From contig NZ_VFPM01000003.1 in NCBI RefSeq assembly GCF_006716675.1, forward strand, positions 496,001-560,000: a stretch of DNA of 64,000 nucleotides. The letters run 5' to 3'. The stretch is from Humibacillus xanthopallidus. GTDB taxonomy: Bacteria; Actinomycetota; Actinomycetes; Actinomycetales; Dermatophilaceae. This document shows positions 27,695 through 36,046 of this stretch, in pieces. The position numbers and the translations under genes are program-made. The number at the start of each line of letters is the position of its first letter. Within the stretch, counting starts at the first letter, position 1. The notes beneath the pieces are model-generated. The model worked only from the letters and a program-made list of their open reading frames with translations. It did not search any database and was not told the DNA's origin.

Positions 27695-28612
27695 ATGCAG
27701 AGCGTGACATCGTCCGGATCGAGCCAGGGGTCCACCCCACGCCGCACCCTGCTCATCATCGGGGGCGCCGAGGACCGCATCGGGCGGTCGGTCGTCCTCA
27801 AGCGCTTCGTCAAGCTCGCCGGCGGGCGCCATTCGCACATCGTCGTCATCCCGACCGCGTCGTCCTTCGCCCAGGAGGTCTCCGAGGCCTACCGCGACGT
27901 CTTCACCCGGCTGCGCGGCGGTGACGTGTCGGTCGTCCACCCGGCCACGCGACGCGAGGCGAGCGACCCGGCACTCGTCGCTGCCCTCGACTCGGCGACG
28001 GGTGTCTTCCTCACCGGCGGCAGCCAGGTCAAGCTCGCCCAGAACGTCGTCGGCACCCCGGTGGGCGACGCGATCGTGCGCGCCTACGAGCGCGGCGCCG
28101 TCGTGGCGGGCACCTCCGCCGGCGCCTCGATCATGAGCCGCTACATGATCTCGCTCGGCGAGGAGGGCCTGACCCCGCGACAGCGTGCCAGCCAGATCTC
28201 GGCGGGTCTGGGGCTCGTCGAGGACGTCATCATTGACCAGCACTTCGACCAGCGCGGTCGCTACGGCCGTCTCATGTCGATGGTCGCGGCCTCCCCCAAC
28301 CTCCTCGGCATGGGCATCGACGAGAACACCGCCGCCGAGATCCGTGACGCCAAGGTCATGTCGGTCATCGGGGCCGGCGCGATCTTCGTCGTCAACGCCC
28401 GCAACGCCATCACCGACGCCCCGGACGCGCGCCGCGGTGCCCCGCTGCTCGTTTCGGGAGCGGTGGTGCACACGCTGCCCACGGGCAGTACCTTCGACCT
28501 GCAGCACGTGGAGCTGACCGCCTTCGTCGAGCGCCACCCGGACATCGAGGGTGCGGTCGTTCCCGCGAAGGTCCGCGCCGCGCGCTCCGCCCCGAGCAGC
28601 GCTGCCCACTGA
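27695..28612 (+). CDS. cphB: Cyanophycinase (S51 serine peptidase)
   Basis: A 305-residue CphB. The family degrades the storage polymer cyanophycin (multi-L-arginyl-poly-L-aspartate) to beta-Asp-Arg dipeptides. The opening LLIIGGAEDRIGRSVVLKRF, the FLTGGSQVKLAQ segment and the nucleophile elbow VAGTSAGASIMSR (catalytic Ser about residue 140) are family hallmarks, with IIDQHFDQRGRYGRL as the later His-containing block. There is no signal peptide, so it is intracellular. It lies 44 nt before cphA on the same strand, the common cphB-cphA order, so synthesis and mobilisation are encoded together. Confidence 0.93.
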   Translation: MQSVTSSGSSQGSTPRRTLLIIGGAEDRIGRSVVLKRFVKLAGGRHSHIVVIPTASSFAQEVSEAYRDVFTRLRGGDVSVVHPATRREASDPALVAALDSATGVFLTGGSQVKLAQNVVGTPVGDAIVRAYERGAVVAGTSAGASIMSRYMISLGEEGLTPRQRASQISAGLGLVEDVIIDQHFDQRGRYGRLMSMVAASPNLLGMGIDENTAAEIRDAKVMSVIGAGAIFVVNARNAITDAPDARRGAPLLVSGAVVHTLPTGSTFDLQHVELTAFVERHPDIEGAVVPAKVRAARSAPSSAAH

Positions 28613-28656: not shown

Positions 28657-31545
28657 ATGGCCGTCGAGGTCCCCACCCCCACCGGTCCGGCGCGCCCGGA
28701 CCTCACGATCCTCGAGACGCGGATCTACCGGGGCCCCAACGTCTGGTCCTACCAGCAGGCCATCCACCTCGTCGTCGACCTCGGCTCCCTCGAGGACTAC
28801 CCCACCGTCTCGCTCCCGGGCTTCACCGAGCAGCTGCTCGAGGCCGTGCCCGGGCTGCACAACCACACGTGCTCGCGCGGACGCCGCGGCGGCTTCGTCG
28901 AGCGGCTCCACGAGGGAACCTGGCTCGGGCACGTCGCCGAGCACGTTGCCCTCCAGCTCCAGACGCTCGCCGGCCACGAGTCGAGGCGCGGCAAGACGCG
29001 CGCGGTCAAGGGGGTGCGGGGCCGATACAACGTCATCTACAGCTACACCGACGAGACCGTCGGGGTCGCGGCCGGCAAGCTGTCGGTCCGGTTGCTCAAC
29101 CACCTCGTGGCGCCGGAGGACGGCTTCGACTTCGAGACCGAATTCAACGCCTTCCTGCGCCAGGCAGAGCGCGTGGCCTTCGGACCGTCGACGGCCGCGA
29201 TCCTCGAGGAGGCGGCGTCTCGCGACATCCCCTTCATCCGGCTCAACTCGGCCTCGCTCGTCCAGCTCGGCCAAGGCGTCCACGCCCAGCGCATCCGGGC
29301 CACGATGACCTCCAAGACGGGCGCCCTCGCGGTCGACATCGCGAGCGACAAGGACCTCACGACCAAGCTGCTCGGCTCGGCGGGGCTTCCCGTGCCGAAG
29401 CAGGAGTCGGCCCGCACCCTGCGGGGCACCGTCGAGGCGGCCCGACGCATCGGCTTCCCCGTCGTGGTCAAACCGCTCGACGGCAACCACGGACGCGGGG
29501 TCTGCCTCAACCTCATGAGCGACGCCGACGTCGAGAAGGCCTACGACATCGCCAAGGCGGAGTCGCGCCGCGGCACGATCATCGTCGAGTCCTTCGTCAC
29601 CGGGCGCGACTACCGCTGCCTCATCGTCGGCGGCAAGATGCAGGCGATCGCCGAGCGGGTGCCGGCCCACGTCATCGGCGACGGCACGAGCACGGTGTCC
29701 GAGCTCGTCGACCTCACCAACGCCGACCCACGCCGCGGCGTCGGCCACGAGAAGGTCCTGACCAAGATCCGTGTCGACGCGAACGCCGAGGAGATCCTCG
29801 CGGGGCAGGGCTACACCCTCTCCTCCGTGCCGCCCGAGGGCGAGATGGTCAAGCTCGCGCTGACGGGCAACATGTCGACGGGCGGCATCTCGATCGACCG
29901 CACCTTCGACGCGCACCCCGACAACGTCGAGATCGCCGAGGAAGCCGCGCGCATGGTCGGTCTCGATGTCGCGGGCATCGACTTCATCTGCCCCGACATC
30001 ACCTACCCGGTGCGTGAGACGGGTGGCGCGATCTGCGAGGTCAACGCTGCGCCCGGCTTCCGCATGCACACGCATCCCACGGTGGGTGAGCCCCAGTTCA
30101 TCGCCAAGCCGGTCGTCGACCTGCTCTTCCCGCCCGGCGCGCAGTCGCGGGTGCCGATCGTCGCGGTGACCGGTACCAACGGCAAGACGACGACCTCGCG
30201 CATGATCGCCCACATCTTCAAGGGCCTCGGGCGCAAGGTCGGCATGACCTCGACCGATGGCGTCGTCATCGACGAGCGCCTCGTCATCAAGGCCGACGCG
30301 TCGGGGCCGCGCTCCGCGCGGATGGTCCTGCAGAACCCCCGTGTCGACTTCGCCGTCATGGAGGTCGCTCGTGGCGGCATCCTGCGTGAGGGCCTCGGCT
30401 ACGACCGCAACGACATCGCGGTCGTGACGAACGTCCAGCCAGATCACCTGGGCCTCAAGGGAATCGACACCTTGCGCCAGCTCGCTGACGTCAAGGCCGT
30501 CATCGTCGAGGCCGTGCCGCGCGACGGCTTCGCCGTCCTCAACGCCGACGACCCGCACGTGCGCAACATGCGCCGCCGGTGCTCCGGAGGCATCGTCTGG
30601 TTCACCATGGCCGAGCCGGGCAGCGAGGTGCGCGAGTTCGTCGACGACTACTGCCGTCGGGGTGGCCGCGCCGTCGTGCTCGAGCCGAGCGAGCGCGGCG
30701 AGATGATCGTCATCAAGCACGGTCGGCGGAGCATGCAGCTCGCCTGGACCCACCTGCTGCCGGCCACCTTCGGCGGAGCCGCCCGCTTCAACGTGGCCAA
30801 CTCGCTGGCGGCCGCCGGTGCCGCCTTCGCCGCGGGCGCACCGCTGCACGACATCCGCCAGGGCCTGCGGACCTTCGCCACGACCTACTACCTCTCCCCC
30901 GGTCGCCTCAACCTCATCGAGGTGGGCAATGCCGACGTCTTCGTCGACTACTGCCACAACGCGGCCGGCATGAAGGAGCTCGGCGCCTTCGTCGACCGCT
31001 ACGCCGCGCAGAAGCAGGGCCAGCACGACCTGACGAAGACCTCCCGCATCGGGATGATCGGCGCCGCCGGCGACCGGCGTGACGACGACATGCGCGAGCT
31101 CGGCCACGTCGCGGCCCAGCACTTCGACGTGCTCGTCATCCGCGAGGACGAGCGGCTCCGCGGCCGCAAGCCCGGTGAGACGGCGGGGCTCATCGCCGAG
31201 GGAGCCCACACGGCGATGCAGGAGGGGGCCCGCTGCCGGCAGGTCGAGGTCGTCCTCGACGAGCTCGAGGCCACCCGTCACGTCCTCGCCCGCACCAACC
31301 CCGGCGACCTCGTCGTCATGTGCGTCGACCAGCACGCCATGGTTGTCACCGAGCTCGAGGAGCGCACCAAGCACGCGCAGGCCGGCGCCCGCATCGGGCT
31401 GCCCAGCGCCGCCACGAGCGACCCCGACCTCGACCCGACGACCCTCACCTCGACCGCGGAGGCAGAGGGCACCGAGGCCGAGGGCGAGGCCCTCGCGGTC
31501 GTCCCGGGCGAGACCCACCCGCCCCTCGACGACACCGCCATCTGA
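28657..31545 (+). CDS. cphA: Cyanophycin synthetase
   Basis: A 962-residue CphA that adds Asp and then Arg to the growing polymer, with one ATP used for each. The order is an N-terminal domain (about 1-165, ILETRIYRGPNVWSYQQAIH), an ATP-grasp domain (about 215-480, FPVVVKPLDGNHGRGVCLNL; EVNAAPGFRMH) for Asp addition, and a Mur-ligase-like domain (from about 490; P-loop VTGTNGKTTTSRMIAH near 505) for Arg addition. All three catalytic parts look intact. After about residue 905 comes an acidic low-complexity tail. The ribosome-binding site AGGAGGAG precedes ATG 28657. An inverted repeat lies between it and a convergent Mur ligase gene. Confidence 0.95.
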   Translation: MAVEVPTPTGPARPDLTILETRIYRGPNVWSYQQAIHLVVDLGSLEDYPTVSLPGFTEQLLEAVPGLHNHTCSRGRRGGFVERLHEGTWLGHVAEHVALQLQTLAGHESRRGKTRAVKGVRGRYNVIYSYTDETVGVAAGKLSVRLLNHLVAPEDGFDFETEFNAFLRQAERVAFGPSTAAILEEAASRDIPFIRLNSASLVQLGQGVHAQRIRATMTSKTGALAVDIASDKDLTTKLLGSAGLPVPKQESARTLRGTVEAARRIGFPVVVKPLDGNHGRGVCLNLMSDADVEKAYDIAKAESRRGTIIVESFVTGRDYRCLIVGGKMQAIAERVPAHVIGDGTSTVSELVDLTNADPRRGVGHEKVLTKIRVDANAEEILAGQGYTLSSVPPEGEMVKLALTGNMSTGGISIDRTFDAHPDNVEIAEEAARMVGLDVAGIDFICPDITYPVRETGGAICEVNAAPGFRMHTHPTVGEPQFIAKPVVDLLFPPGAQSRVPIVAVTGTNGKTTTSRMIAHIFKGLGRKVGMTSTDGVVIDERLVIKADASGPRSARMVLQNPRVDFAVMEVARGGILREGLGYDRNDIAVVTNVQPDHLGLKGIDTLRQLADVKAVIVEAVPRDGFAVLNADDPHVRNMRRRCSGGIVWFTMAEPGSEVREFVDDYCRRGGRAVVLEPSERGEMIVIKHGRRSMQLAWTHLLPATFGGAARFNVANSLAAAGAAFAAGAPLHDIRQGLRTFATTYYLSPGRLNLIEVGNADVFVDYCHNAAGMKELGAFVDRYAAQKQGQHDLTKTSRIGMIGAAGDRRDDDMRELGHVAAQHFDVLVIREDERLRGRKPGETAGLIAEGAHTAMQEGARCRQVEVVLDELEATRHVLARTNPGDLVVMCVDQHAMVVTELEERTKHAQAGARIGLPSAATSDPDLDPTTLTSTAEAEGTEAEGEALAVVPGETHPPLDDTAI

Positions 31546-31564
31546 CCTCGACCCCGTCGGGAAC

Positions 31565-31640
31565 TGGGCACTCGACGGTGAATTCTCGTCGAGTGCCCAC
31601 TTCCTGACGCCCCGGTCACGTCGAGAACTGGGCACTCGAC
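31565..31640. repeat. Inverted and direct repeat between convergent cphA and the Mur ligase-TPR gene
   Basis: TGGGCACTCGACG (31565-31577) and its perfect complement (31587-31599) form a 13-bp stem with a 9-nt loop. A further direct copy GAACTGGGCACTCGAC lies at 31625-31640. It probably works as a two-way terminator; the extra copy suggests a mobile or amplified intergenic element. Confidence 0.75.
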
Positions 31641-31654
31641 CTCGGGACATGGGT

Positions 31655-34003
31655 TCAGTCGGCGCGCGGCGGGGCCAGCTCGTCCGCGTAGGCGCGCAGG
31701 GCTCGACGGTAGGACTGCGTGTCGACGTCCGTGGTCGCCTCGAGCGATGCCCGGATGAGGTCGGCGACCGCCTGCCGCTCCTGACCGAGGTCGGCCTGCA
31801 CGAGCGCCCGGAACATGATGGCCGCCGTGTTGTGCGGTCGAGCCTCCAGGACCTCGTCCACGATCGGCGCGGCCTCGGCGGCACGGCCCACGACCCGCAG
31901 GCTGGACGCGAGCTGGAGCTGGGCGCGGTGACGGTGCGGCTCCTTGAGGCCGGCTGCCAGCGCGTCCTCGTAGAGGCTGATCGCCTCCTGCTCGTCGCCG
32001 GCCGAGTCCTTGGCGCCGGCGAGCTCGAAGACGAGGCGGGCGTCGCCGGGGTGGTCGTCGACGAGGTGCTGCGCCTCGGCGACCAGCGCTGCGGCGTCGT
32101 CCATGCTCCAGAGGGCGGCGATCTCCGACTCGAGCTCGTGCTCGCCGCGCGCCGCGACGACCTTGCGGCGGATCGTGCGCGCGTCGTCGACCGTGCCGCC
32201 GTGCTCGCGGATCCAGCCGTCGACCTCGGCGCGCTCGGCGTGACACATCAACGCGATGACGTCACCGGCGTGGGCGTGCGGAGCGAGGGCCTCCAGCGAG
32301 GCGAGCTCCGTGCCGTAGCCCGGCACGTCGAGGACGCCGACCTTGGCCAGCCCCTCCCGGAAGAGGTCGAGCAGGTCGTCGGCCTCGCGTCCGCGCAGGT
32401 AGTGCCGGGCGACCTTGAGGGCGACCTCCTCGGCGCCTCGGCCGGCGATCTCGCCCATGGCGATGATGGCCTCGTCGGTGCGGTCACCGGCGCACCCGAG
32501 GCTGAGCCGCACCGCCCCTCCGGGCGCCACGAGGCCCCGGGCCACCTCGAGCAGGGCCTCGAGGCCGGCCTCGTTGTGGGCCATGTCCATGATGACCGTG
32601 GCCCGGCCACCGGTCTCGAGCGGGAGCGAGTAGGTGTTGAGCCGCCCCCAGTTGTGCTCGGGGTCGGGCGCGAAGGTGCGCAGCCCCTCGATGACGGCAG
32701 AGCGCGCGACGCCGAGGCCCAGGGCCGCCGCAGCGCCGGCGAGGGCGTTGGCGATGTTGTTGTGCGACAGGCCGGACAGCGTCATAGGCACGTCGACGAT
32801 CTTGACGAGGCGGTCGGGGTCGCCGTTCTGCGACAGCACGACGATCTCGCCGTCGAGCACGGTGATGCCGCGCCCGCCCTGGTTGATCGACTCCCACAGC
32901 GCGGGCGATGCAGGGTCGAGGCTGAAGGCCCACGGCTTCGCCTTGATGCCGTGCCGCATCGCCCAGACGCGCGGGTCGTCGCCGTTGAGGACCACCCACC
33001 CCTCCGGCTTGGTCACGGTCGTGACGATGGCCTTGACCTCAGCCAGCTGGTCGAGGGTGTCGATCCCCTGCAGGCCGAGGTGGTCGGCGCTGACGTTCGT
33101 GACGACGCTGACGTCGTTGGCGGTGACGCCCATGCCCTTGAGGAGCATCCCGCCCCGGGCGGTCTCGAGGATGCCGATCTCCAGACCGGGCGTCTCGAGC
33201 ACTCCCCGGGCGCCGGCCGGGCCGGAGAAGTCACCGGCCTCCTTGGTCTCGCCCATGACGACCACGCCGTCGGTCGAGCTCCACGCGGTGCGCAGGCCCG
33301 CGGTCATGCACATGTGCGCCATGAGGCGCGTCGTCGTCGTCTTGCCGTTCGTGCCGGTGACGGAGGCGACCGGGACCCGCGGCGTGATGACGCTCGGCGG
33401 GGGACCGTCGGGCGAGGCGAGGATGACGGCGCCCGCCGCCTCGATGACCTCGTCCGGTCGCCGCGACGGGTCGAGCAGCCCTGCCAGCATGGCGCCGATC
33501 TGCTCACCCGCCACCTGTCCGCGGGTGCGGTGAACCCAGGGGAAGGCGATGACGACGTCGTCGACGGTCTGCCCGGCGCGCACGCGCACTCCGAGGCGCC
33601 CCACCCCGATCTCGGAGCCGACCCGCTTGGTCACGGTGCGAATCACCCGCATGACGAACCGCTGGCGCAGAGCGCTGCCTCGACGACCCGGACGGGCAGC
33701 GCGCATCCCGAGGCGCCGGGCCAGCGCCTCGGCCTCGGTGCGCCGCATCGACAGGTAGCCGTGCAGGTGGAGGCTGACCTTGATCGTGGGGCGGGGGAAG
33801 TAGAGGTTGGGCCCCTCGAGCACGCGCACCTCGTCGACCCGCACGGCGGGCACCTCGGCAGGCACGTCGGCGGTCATCTCGCCGCCCGACGGGGCCGTCG
33901 GCGGCCTCGCGCCGGATGGTGCGGTGGTGTCCGAGGCGGTGTCCGAGACGCTGCCTGGCTCGGACGTCAGGGCAGGGGTGGAGGGGCTACCGGCGTCGGG
34001 CAT
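31655..34003 (-). CDS. CphA-like Mur ligase without ATP-grasp, fused to C-terminal TPRs
   Basis: A 782-residue fusion. After a Pro/Ser/Thr-rich leader (1-60), residues about 70-200 resemble the CphA N-terminal domain (RVLEGPNLYFPRPTIKVSLHL), but no ATP-grasp domain follows. A Mur-ligase core begins near 215 (VTGTNGKTTTTRLMAH) with VVTNVSADHLGLQGIDT and MDMAHNEAGLEALLEVARG, close to the CphA muramyl-ligase half. From about 635 to the end are tetratricopeptide repeats (GDARLVFELAGAKDSAGDEQ; QLQLASSLRVVGRAAEAAPI). It may ligate an amino acid to an acidic polymer or peptide; the acceptor is unknown. ATG 34003 has TAGAGT (34011-34016) at 7 nt. It is convergent with cphA. Confidence 0.85.
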   Translation of the reverse strand: MPDAGSPSTPALTSEPGSVSDTASDTTAPSGARPPTAPSGGEMTADVPAEVPAVRVDEVRVLEGPNLYFPRPTIKVSLHLHGYLSMRRTEAEALARRLGMRAARPGRRGSALRQRFVMRVIRTVTKRVGSEIGVGRLGVRVRAGQTVDDVVIAFPWVHRTRGQVAGEQIGAMLAGLLDPSRRPDEVIEAAGAVILASPDGPPPSVITPRVPVASVTGTNGKTTTTRLMAHMCMTAGLRTAWSSTDGVVVMGETKEAGDFSGPAGARGVLETPGLEIGILETARGGMLLKGMGVTANDVSVVTNVSADHLGLQGIDTLDQLAEVKAIVTTVTKPEGWVVLNGDDPRVWAMRHGIKAKPWAFSLDPASPALWESINQGGRGITVLDGEIVVLSQNGDPDRLVKIVDVPMTLSGLSHNNIANALAGAAAALGLGVARSAVIEGLRTFAPDPEHNWGRLNTYSLPLETGGRATVIMDMAHNEAGLEALLEVARGLVAPGGAVRLSLGCAGDRTDEAIIAMGEIAGRGAEEVALKVARHYLRGREADDLLDLFREGLAKVGVLDVPGYGTELASLEALAPHAHAGDVIALMCHAERAEVDGWIREHGGTVDDARTIRRKVVAARGEHELESEIAALWSMDDAAALVAEAQHLVDDHPGDARLVFELAGAKDSAGDEQEAISLYEDALAAGLKEPHRHRAQLQLASSLRVVGRAAEAAPIVDEVLEARPHNTAAIMFRALVQADLGQERQAVADLIRASLEATTDVDTQSYRRALRAYADELAPPRAD

Positions 34004-34066
34004 GGGCAGGACTCTAGCGAGCCGCAGGCGTGCCCGCTGCGCCGCGCCCACGCCGCACCGGCAGGG

Positions 34067-34828
34067 TCACTGACCCATCGCGTGGACGCCGCCGTCGACG
34101 TGCACGATCTCGCCCGTCGTGGCCGGGAACCAGTCGGACAGCAGGGCCGCACAGGCCTTCGCGGCCGGCACCGGGTCGTTGACGTCCCAGCCGAGCGGGG
34201 CTCGGTCGTCCCAGATCTGCTCGAACTGCTCGAACCCCGGGATCGACTTCGCCGCGGTCGTGCGGATCGGACCCGCCGCCACGAGGTTGCACCGCACGTC
34301 CTTCGGCCCGAGGTCGCGGGCGAGGTAGCGGTTCGTCGACTCGAAGGCGGCCTTGGCGACACCCATCCAGTCATAGACGGGCCAGGCGAACTTCGCGTCG
34401 AAGGTGAGACCGACGACGCTGCCGCCCTCGGGCATGAGGGGCAGGCACGCGACGGCGAGCGACTTGAGGCTGTAGGCCGAGATGTGCACCGCTGTCGACA
34501 CGTCCTCCCACGTGCCCTCGAGGAAGTTGAAGGCGCCCTGCGGCGCGAAGCCGATCGAGTGGAGCACGCCGTCGAGGCCGTCGACGTGCTCGCGGAGCCG
34601 GTCGGCGAGCGTGTCGAGGTGCTCCTGGTCGGAGACGTCGAGCTCGATGACGACAGGCGTCTCGGGCAGCCGCTTGGCGATGGTCTGCGTGATCTTCATC
34701 GTCCGGCCGAACGAGGTGAGCACGACGGTCGCACCCTCCTGCTGCGCGATCTTCGCGACGTGGAAAGCGATCGAGCTGTCCATGAGGACGCCGGTGATGA
34801 GGAGCTTCTTGCCTTCGAGGATTCCCAT
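34067..34828 (-). CDS. fabI: Enoyl-[acyl-carrier-protein] reductase (InhA/FabI)
   Basis: A 253-residue NADH-dependent enoyl-ACP reductase finishing each fatty-acid elongation cycle. The start MGILEGKKLLITGVLMDSSI carries the divergent dinucleotide-binding loop of FabI/InhA. LHSIGFAPQGAF and the catalytic VYDWMGVAKAAFES (Tyr and Lys spaced by six) lie near residues 150-165. The end GGVHAMGQ is typical. ATG 34828 is chosen over the in-frame start at 34879 because it gives the conserved N-terminus. It follows fabG on the same strand by 80 nt, the mycobacterial fabG1-inhA order. A perfect octamer palindrome lies between them. Confidence 0.94.
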   Translation of the reverse strand: MGILEGKKLLITGVLMDSSIAFHVAKIAQQEGATVVLTSFGRTMKITQTIAKRLPETPVVIELDVSDQEHLDTLADRLREHVDGLDGVLHSIGFAPQGAFNFLEGTWEDVSTAVHISAYSLKSLAVACLPLMPEGGSVVGLTFDAKFAWPVYDWMGVAKAAFESTNRYLARDLGPKDVRCNLVAAGPIRTTAAKSIPGFEQFEQIWDDRAPLGWDVNDPVPAAKACAALLSDWFPATTGEIVHVDGGVHAMGQ

Positions 34829-34878
34829 GCCTGCGACTTTCTCGTGTGGTGAGGAGGCTTGCTGCACAACGGGCTTCA

Positions 34879-34898
34879 CGGCATACGGGCGTATGCCG
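34879..34898. repeat. Perfect palindrome of two GTATGCCG octamers in the fabG-fabI gap
   Basis: CGGCATACG and CGTATGCCG form a 9-bp stem with a 2-nt spacer. It lies 10 nt after the fabG stop and 50 nt before the fabI start, so it could terminate or attenuate read-through into fabI, or serve as a binding site. Confidence 0.8.
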
Positions 34899-34908
34899 CG
34901 GGTGGGGG

Positions 34909-36046
<1,138 letters not shown>

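Follow-up and report, generated by a model that had tools for sequence, protein, structure and literature searches.

What does a CphA-like ligase that lacks the G half of cyanophycin synthetase do beside a complete CphA? In the window, the whole stretch of 64,000 nucleotides from Humibacillus xanthopallidus that was analysed, the plus strand carries genes for the cyanophycinase CphB (27695..28612; TIGR02069 228.6 bits, cut-off 126.6) and for a complete CphA with N, G and M domains, HVAEH in the N domain and an intact P-loop and DHLG motif (28657..31545; TIGR02068 1153.9 bits, cut-off 850). Converging with these genes from the minus strand, as the sequence-only reading of this DNA had described, is a gene for a 740-aa CphA-like ligase without a G domain (31655..33877), with approximately 110 bases separating its end from that of cphA. 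We refer to this protein and its relatives as companion ligases. Cyanophycin is a nitrogen store, studied also as an industrial polymer source, and the literature on its synthesis, in the accessible parts that are cited throughout, credits CphA1 or CphA2. Our reading, to which we give a probability of roughly 0.55, is that the companion would be a working ATP-dependent amide ligase that acts, beside complete CphA, on cyanophycin or Asp-ended pieces and probably adds an amino acid other than arginine.

The longest open frame of the ligase gene runs from 34051 to 31655 on the minus strand, and the gene had earlier been given a start at 34003. The likely start is instead the ATG at 33877, 126 bases further in, since in 11 relatives that carry the motif RVLEGPNLYF (compared within an alignment of 13) plausible start codons lie approximately 12–23 residues upstream of that motif; residues are numbered here from this ATG. 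Among the matches listed, the closest named relative, at 97% identity, belongs to Humibacillus xanthopallidus, with Terrabacter and others ranking next. The minus strand also carries fabG1-like and InhA/FabI-like genes upstream (34067–35763), approximately 190 bases before the start of the ligase gene, which may share their transcript; no sigma-70-like promoter was found in 31400–34200, and PADLOC returned no match to defence families. Between the convergent genes, at 31565–31641, are three copies of TGGGCACTCGAC(G/C), two of them as an inverted pair, in a stretch predicted to form strong hairpins (z -4.8 for one strand and -6.0 for the other). The core of this repeat, GGGCACTCGACG, occurs 48 + 48 times in the genome, often in clusters, compared to 5 times for a reversed control, and is a REP-like dispersed repeat.

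The architecture of the companion is that of CphA without its G domain. Pfam identifies Mur_ligase_M, Mur_ligase_C and TPR_5 (E 4e-25 for the last) in the ligase and no ATP-grasp family at E 1e-3, none is listed for 56 family members, and the AlphaFold model of the ligase has no room for a G domain. The CphA-type Mur ligase (M) domain occupies residues 165–560 (32198..33385, minus strand), is recovered in PDB matches and by TIGR02068 (333.7 bits over residues 224–604 of the longer frame only, which does not reach the cut-off of 850), and contains the P-loop GTNGKTT at residues 175–181 (33335..33355, minus strand), of which K179 and T180 are invariant in 112/112 family rows. Residues 1–160 (33398..33877, minus strand) form a divergent N domain of CphA type. 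None of the 56 aligned family members reaches the Pfam model of the CphA N domain (PF18921) at E 1e-3; hhalign nevertheless matches the N-region profile of the ligase to CphA N domains with a probability of 95% (E 3.7e-8, an E-value for a single comparison), and the AlphaFold model (mean pLDDT 94.8, pTM 0.89) shows the same fold. Overlay of the model with VIA-align places its residues 12–560 on residues 1–877 of TeCphA1 (Z 53.3, rmsd 3.1, 524 aligned residues), compared to Z 33.3 for the best Mur ligase other than CphA. With 524 aligned residues, the N and M domains are covered in one overlay and are placed as in CphA1, with G missing. Thus a CphA-type N domain, a Mur ligase core with an intact P-loop and the absence of ATP-grasp, each of which had been read from the sequence, were all confirmed by Pfam, hhalign and fold. 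The N domain of the ligase contains no HxxEH primer-making site. Most CphA1 enzymes use this zinc site to cut primers for themselves, and the full motif is present in 83% of CphA1 (PMC9262961).

The M domains of the ligase and of the CphA next to it share 37% identity. By PDB profile search CphA1 scores 340 bits, the best other Mur ligase 90 and MurT 39. We placed 92 M domains in a tree (quick IQ-TREE with SH-aLRT support only and four Mur rows, MurT being compared by profile only), in which 37 actinobacterial companions form one clade (SH-aLRT 99), to which two companions from Alphaproteobacteria attach (99), and in which companions fall on the CphA side, far from the four Mur rows (support 100); their position among the CphA branches has support of only 82–85, so that the family may either have lost G or stem from an ancestor that predates the fusion with G. 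Grouping with an unrelated Mur ligase family, which had been set as a check on the identification, therefore did not occur in the tree or by profile (340 compared to 90 bits). Because of long branches, the union of the actinobacterial and alphaproteobacterial companions is less sure than its support, and the lid insertion and tyrosine that the two groups share (see below) are further evidence for it. Forcing the actinobacterial companions together with actinobacterial CphA gave an AU p of 0.20, so duplication inside Actinomycetota is not rejected. That the alphaproteobacterial companions are recent copies of the adjoining cphA was rejected (AU p 0.0013, with long branches a caution). Taken together, descent of the M domain provides strong computational evidence that the window ligase belongs to the CphA family in a wide sense.

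Is the companion equipped for catalysis? We compared residues in the companions (112 rows), in actinobacterial CphA (105 rows) and in other CphA (10 rows), a set that repeats some genomes (e.g. loci L121 and L137) and omits loci 1–53, four re-fetched loci and short rows. In TeCphA1, ATP and Mg are bound by Lys499, Thr500, Thr522, Glu558, Arg731 and His748 (PMC9427784), and changing the DH pair inactivates the M domain of SuCphA1 (PMC9262961). These ATP/Mg positions and the DH pair are identical in 112/112 companion rows, and the ligase in the window, whose P-loop reads TGTNGKTT, has the catalytic residues of the CphA1 M domain. Other positions differ consistently from CphA. Ser542 of CphA is Gly in 112/112 companion rows, and Glu607, which contacts the polymer at the N-domain site in SuCphA1 (PMC9262961), is replaced by Arg (57), Lys (26) or Thr (22). 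The window ligase has all of the features of the G-less companion family that we propose, namely N and M domains with no G domain, the residues Gly542 and Tyr803 in TeCphA1 numbering, and a position beside cphA.

Changes that concern the incoming amino acid are found in the lid. The lid of CphA reads ED..(L)RGR, with Asp801 in 99% of the 105 actinobacterial CphA rows and 100% of the 10 others, whereas the companions have one additional residue and no conserved Asp at 801, which is replaced by E (40%), R (12%) or A (12%), and carry Tyr at 803 in 112/112 rows. A further one-residue insertion is found at 546, where 86% have His. In the window ligase the altered loop, residues 487–497 (32387..32419, minus strand), ends in YLRGR; the stretch reads KVARHYLRGR and so lacks the His-Lys pair that most relatives have. 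In our alignment position 801 falls on the leading Asp of DNPR, a motif of MurE, and in Staphylococcus aureus MurE the lysine side chain is held by this Asp (Asp-406) together with Glu-460 (PMC3829189). Because the MurE counterpart of Asp801 contacts lysine and position 801 is altered in the companions, we expect an altered arginine pocket in the companion lid, although the 40% of companion rows with Glu at 801 would still present an acidic residue there. As the residue at 801 varies, the new amino acid is not predictable from one conserved residue; the His, Lys and Tyr of the lid loops of most relatives suggest that it is perhaps neutral or acidic.

CphA1 positions a chain that ends in a bare Asp between its N domain and M core, and adds Arg there (PMC9427784). 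We propose that the polymer would lie in the corresponding place in the companion, that ATP would be used to activate a carboxylate (most likely the beta-carboxylate of an Asp that carries no modification), and that an amino acid, probably not arginine, would then be joined to the activated carboxylate. The backbone would not be extendable by the known route, the G half being absent, and a G-less ligase can soundly be predicted to be unable to make cyanophycin alone. Since the companion keeps the N–M unit and the ATP chemistry, has no means of backbone extension and has an altered loop, addition to cyanophycin or to Asp-ended pieces appears most likely, and lid loops that are consistently unlike those of CphA1 make arginine an improbable substrate. 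The computations establish the family, the architecture, the intact ATP and Mg site, the linkage with CphA and the purifying selection (see below); action on cyanophycin, the carboxylate used and a differing amino acid are what we infer.

The sequence-only reading had suggested that the ligase might add Arg or another amino acid. Addition of Arg is possible, and the best surviving alternative, though an unlikely one, is a helper arginine ligase that would place Arg onto Asp left bare by CphA, or make the first beta-Asp-Arg unit, and so finish or start chains. The M domain of the companion most resembles the domain with which CphA1 adds Arg and keeps its ATP-site residues, Glu occupies the place of Asp801 in two-fifths of the family rows, and the joining of Asp and Arg has been proposed to be among the slow first steps (PMC9262961). 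The lid residues, however, argue against an arginine pocket like that of CphA, with the aspartate that is present in 99–100% of CphA lost and a residue inserted in the amino-acid loop, and most of the companion-bearing genomes looked at have a CphA with its own HxxEH, intact P-loop and DHLG. The separate idea that the companion rescues a CphA with a dead M domain was rejected, as the alignment shows an intact P-loop, TGSNGKTT, in the CphA proteins concerned.

The companion co-occurs with CphA. In the order, CphA above the cut-off is present in 13/198 genomes and the companion in those same 13. In the class, where the search used E up to 1e-70 and two candidates were scored per genome, CphA above the cut-off is present in 37/394 genomes and the companion in 30/37 of these, never alone. 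Across the phylum, 23/396 genomes have CphA (22 above the cut-off, with that of G686 partial), and all 23 have a companion, 21 of them plus two (G696 and G735) in which it is in pieces, beside cphA or across contigs. These draws overlap, and pooled they contain 61 different CphA genomes, 54 of which have a companion. In the remaining seven the companion is absent with all candidates scored; three are genomes of one family with two CphA each, and four have lower CphA scores (977–1017 bits). With 7/61 CphA genomes lacking it, the companion is not essential for cyanophycin as such.

The link extends to gene order. All or part of cphA is found at 76 of the best 80 of 320 related loci; of the other four, that of Nostocoides jenkinsii belongs to a genome with cphA elsewhere, and three are on short contigs or less than 5 kb from a contig end. 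Among the 104 loci with one companion and one cphA, 102 are convergent and two, both alphaproteobacterial, are tandem. Inspection by eye of the open frames listed for the wider gaps revealed no conserved third gene between companion and cphA. On Shinella and Ruegeria plasmids the gene order is cyanophycinase, cphA and a gene annotated 'Mur ligase family protein', and in the two Alphaproteobacteria examined the companion relative is directly downstream of cphA. Although this adjacency spans distant families, it could partly reflect shared descent. The companion is not a local oddity, and the computational evidence that ties it to cyanophycin genes is strong.

These data bear on a second alternative, which we consider doubtful, namely that the companion builds or modifies a different molecule and is linked to cphBA by descent only. 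Its amino-acid loops and the polymer-contact position 607 are changed, it lies far from cphA in Nostocoides jenkinsii, and one draft genome (G773, 67% complete) has a companion without a detected CphA. Against this reading are the phylum-wide co-occurrence with CphA and the fact that the companion also adjoins cphA in Alphaproteobacteria. Consistent presence in genomes without cyanophycin genes, which had been named as an outcome that would count against a role with cyanophycin, was not observed in the draws searched, that one incomplete draft being the only case there.

The C-terminal tail of the window ligase (TPR_5, residues 615–734; 31676..32035, minus strand) had been read as a fusion to TPRs that might dock on CphA or on granules. 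A TPR_5 tail is indeed present here, but it does not define the family, since a long tail is found in 61/114 companions and none in 53/114. Judging by Pfam and by tail lengths, it is a late, lineage-specific addition; the long-tailed members are the window ligase and those at loci L054–L112 and L114, by their titles from Dermatophilaceae and near families. Tailless members also stand beside cphA (17/20 tailless loci within the best 80 of 320 matches), so TPR docking is no general mechanism and we rejected it as the core idea, while in this actinobacterial group the tail is perhaps a docking add-on. At L053:9256-11148 (G050) the TPR tail is degenerate or frame-shifted and the N and M domains are kept. 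Other genomes of the order encode TPR proteins 29–46% identical to the tail (loci L015–L029 and L031), 14/16 of them in frames of 172–294 aa, and the fused TPR may derive from such proteins.

TPR tails often bind proteins, and we counted this in favour of a third alternative, that the companion regulates CphA or partners it structurally, for instance in a mixed oligomer, and binds ATP for control and not for ligation. CphA1 is a tetramer in which the M core contacts N and G (PMC9427784), and the companion keeps N and M. We regard this role as improbable, because invariance extends beyond the nucleotide site to catalytic residues, among them the DH pair and the Arg and His of the lid.

Nei-Gojobori dN/dS for four relatives is 0.22–0.29 in the N domain, 0.11–0.22 in the M domain and 0.24–0.51 in the TPR part, and the ligase is under purifying selection throughout. 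That the companion is a decaying, functionless CphA duplicate, as the lack of a G domain, the loss of the N-domain site, the degenerate tail in G050 (L053) and the gene in several frames in G735 might suggest, is therefore very improbable, given that dN/dS stays well under 1 in all three parts (N, M and TPR) and that the catalytic residues do not vary across the phylum.

We thus favour an amide ligase that would act on cyanophycin or Asp-ended pieces. That a second ligase is conserved beside CphA across a phylum suggests that the CphA1/CphA2 picture lacks a step, one by which cyanophycin may be made or modified and which has gone unrecognised. More tentatively, and with less confidence than in the activity itself, the cyanophycin of Actinomycetota and some Alphaproteobacteria might not be the plain Asp-Arg polymer: it might receive from this second ligase a different amino acid on Asp side chains or chain ends, and the resulting polymer, capped or mixed, would have a solubility or turnover of its own. 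The finding bears on the cphA cluster of phosphorus-removing wastewater bacteria formerly called Tetrasphaera, which is described as cphB, cphA, glgA, glgC and serB in section 3.3 of PMC10687191, a section that does not name a companion ligase gene.

Other reduced or duplicated forms of CphA were also encountered. G206 (loci L147 and L148) belongs to a family of three genomes with two CphA genes and no companion; its second CphA has no HxxEH by pattern search and has Arg at position 801, and for these reasons may stand in for the companion. A gene on a plasmid of Legionella adelaidensis (L177:3347-5215) encodes N, with HVIEH kept, and M without G, adjoins genes for cyanophycinase and isoaspartyl peptidase on a plasmid with no full CphA, and is apparently an independent G-less CphA. 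CphA-like proteins of Deinococcus plasmids (L174:2804-5320 and L176:3044-5218), in which G is eroded or missing, group with Deinococcus CphA and are another independent reduction.

We found no literature account of a CphA relative that keeps M and loses G, in a search that was thin on subscription journals, so that a description elsewhere is possible; none is described in the accessible parts of PMC10206079, PMC9123174 and PMC12978653. Among known systems, MurT is distant by profile (39 bits, compared to 340 bits for CphA1). MurE shares the fold and the ATP site, and its amino-acid motif, DNPR or DNPA, matches the lid loop, but it is distant in sequence and in the tree with its four Mur rows and has no CphA-type N domain. 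The 'Mur ligase family protein' of Shinella, Ruegeria and Roseateles plasmids has an N-like region (GPNLY or GPGLL) and M, has no G, lies beside cphA, groups with the actinobacterial family (99) and, in the two members compared, has the lid insertion and Tyr; it differs in having no TPR, in being tandem and not convergent, and in its long branch, and its database entries give no function. CphA1 (TIGR02068; PDB 7wae, 7lg5 and 7lgq) has the same arrangement of N and M and the same ATP/Mg residues, while the ligase is without G and HxxEH, has altered lid loops and, here, carries a TPR tail. CphA2, compared by its description, resembles the companion as a CphA relative cut to one active ligation site, which in the companion is a predicted one, and in the absence of the N-domain motif (PMC9262961 for CphA2). 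It differs in what is kept, since CphA2 retains the G reaction and is without the P-loop and lid of M (PMC9427784), and the companion ligase is the reverse.
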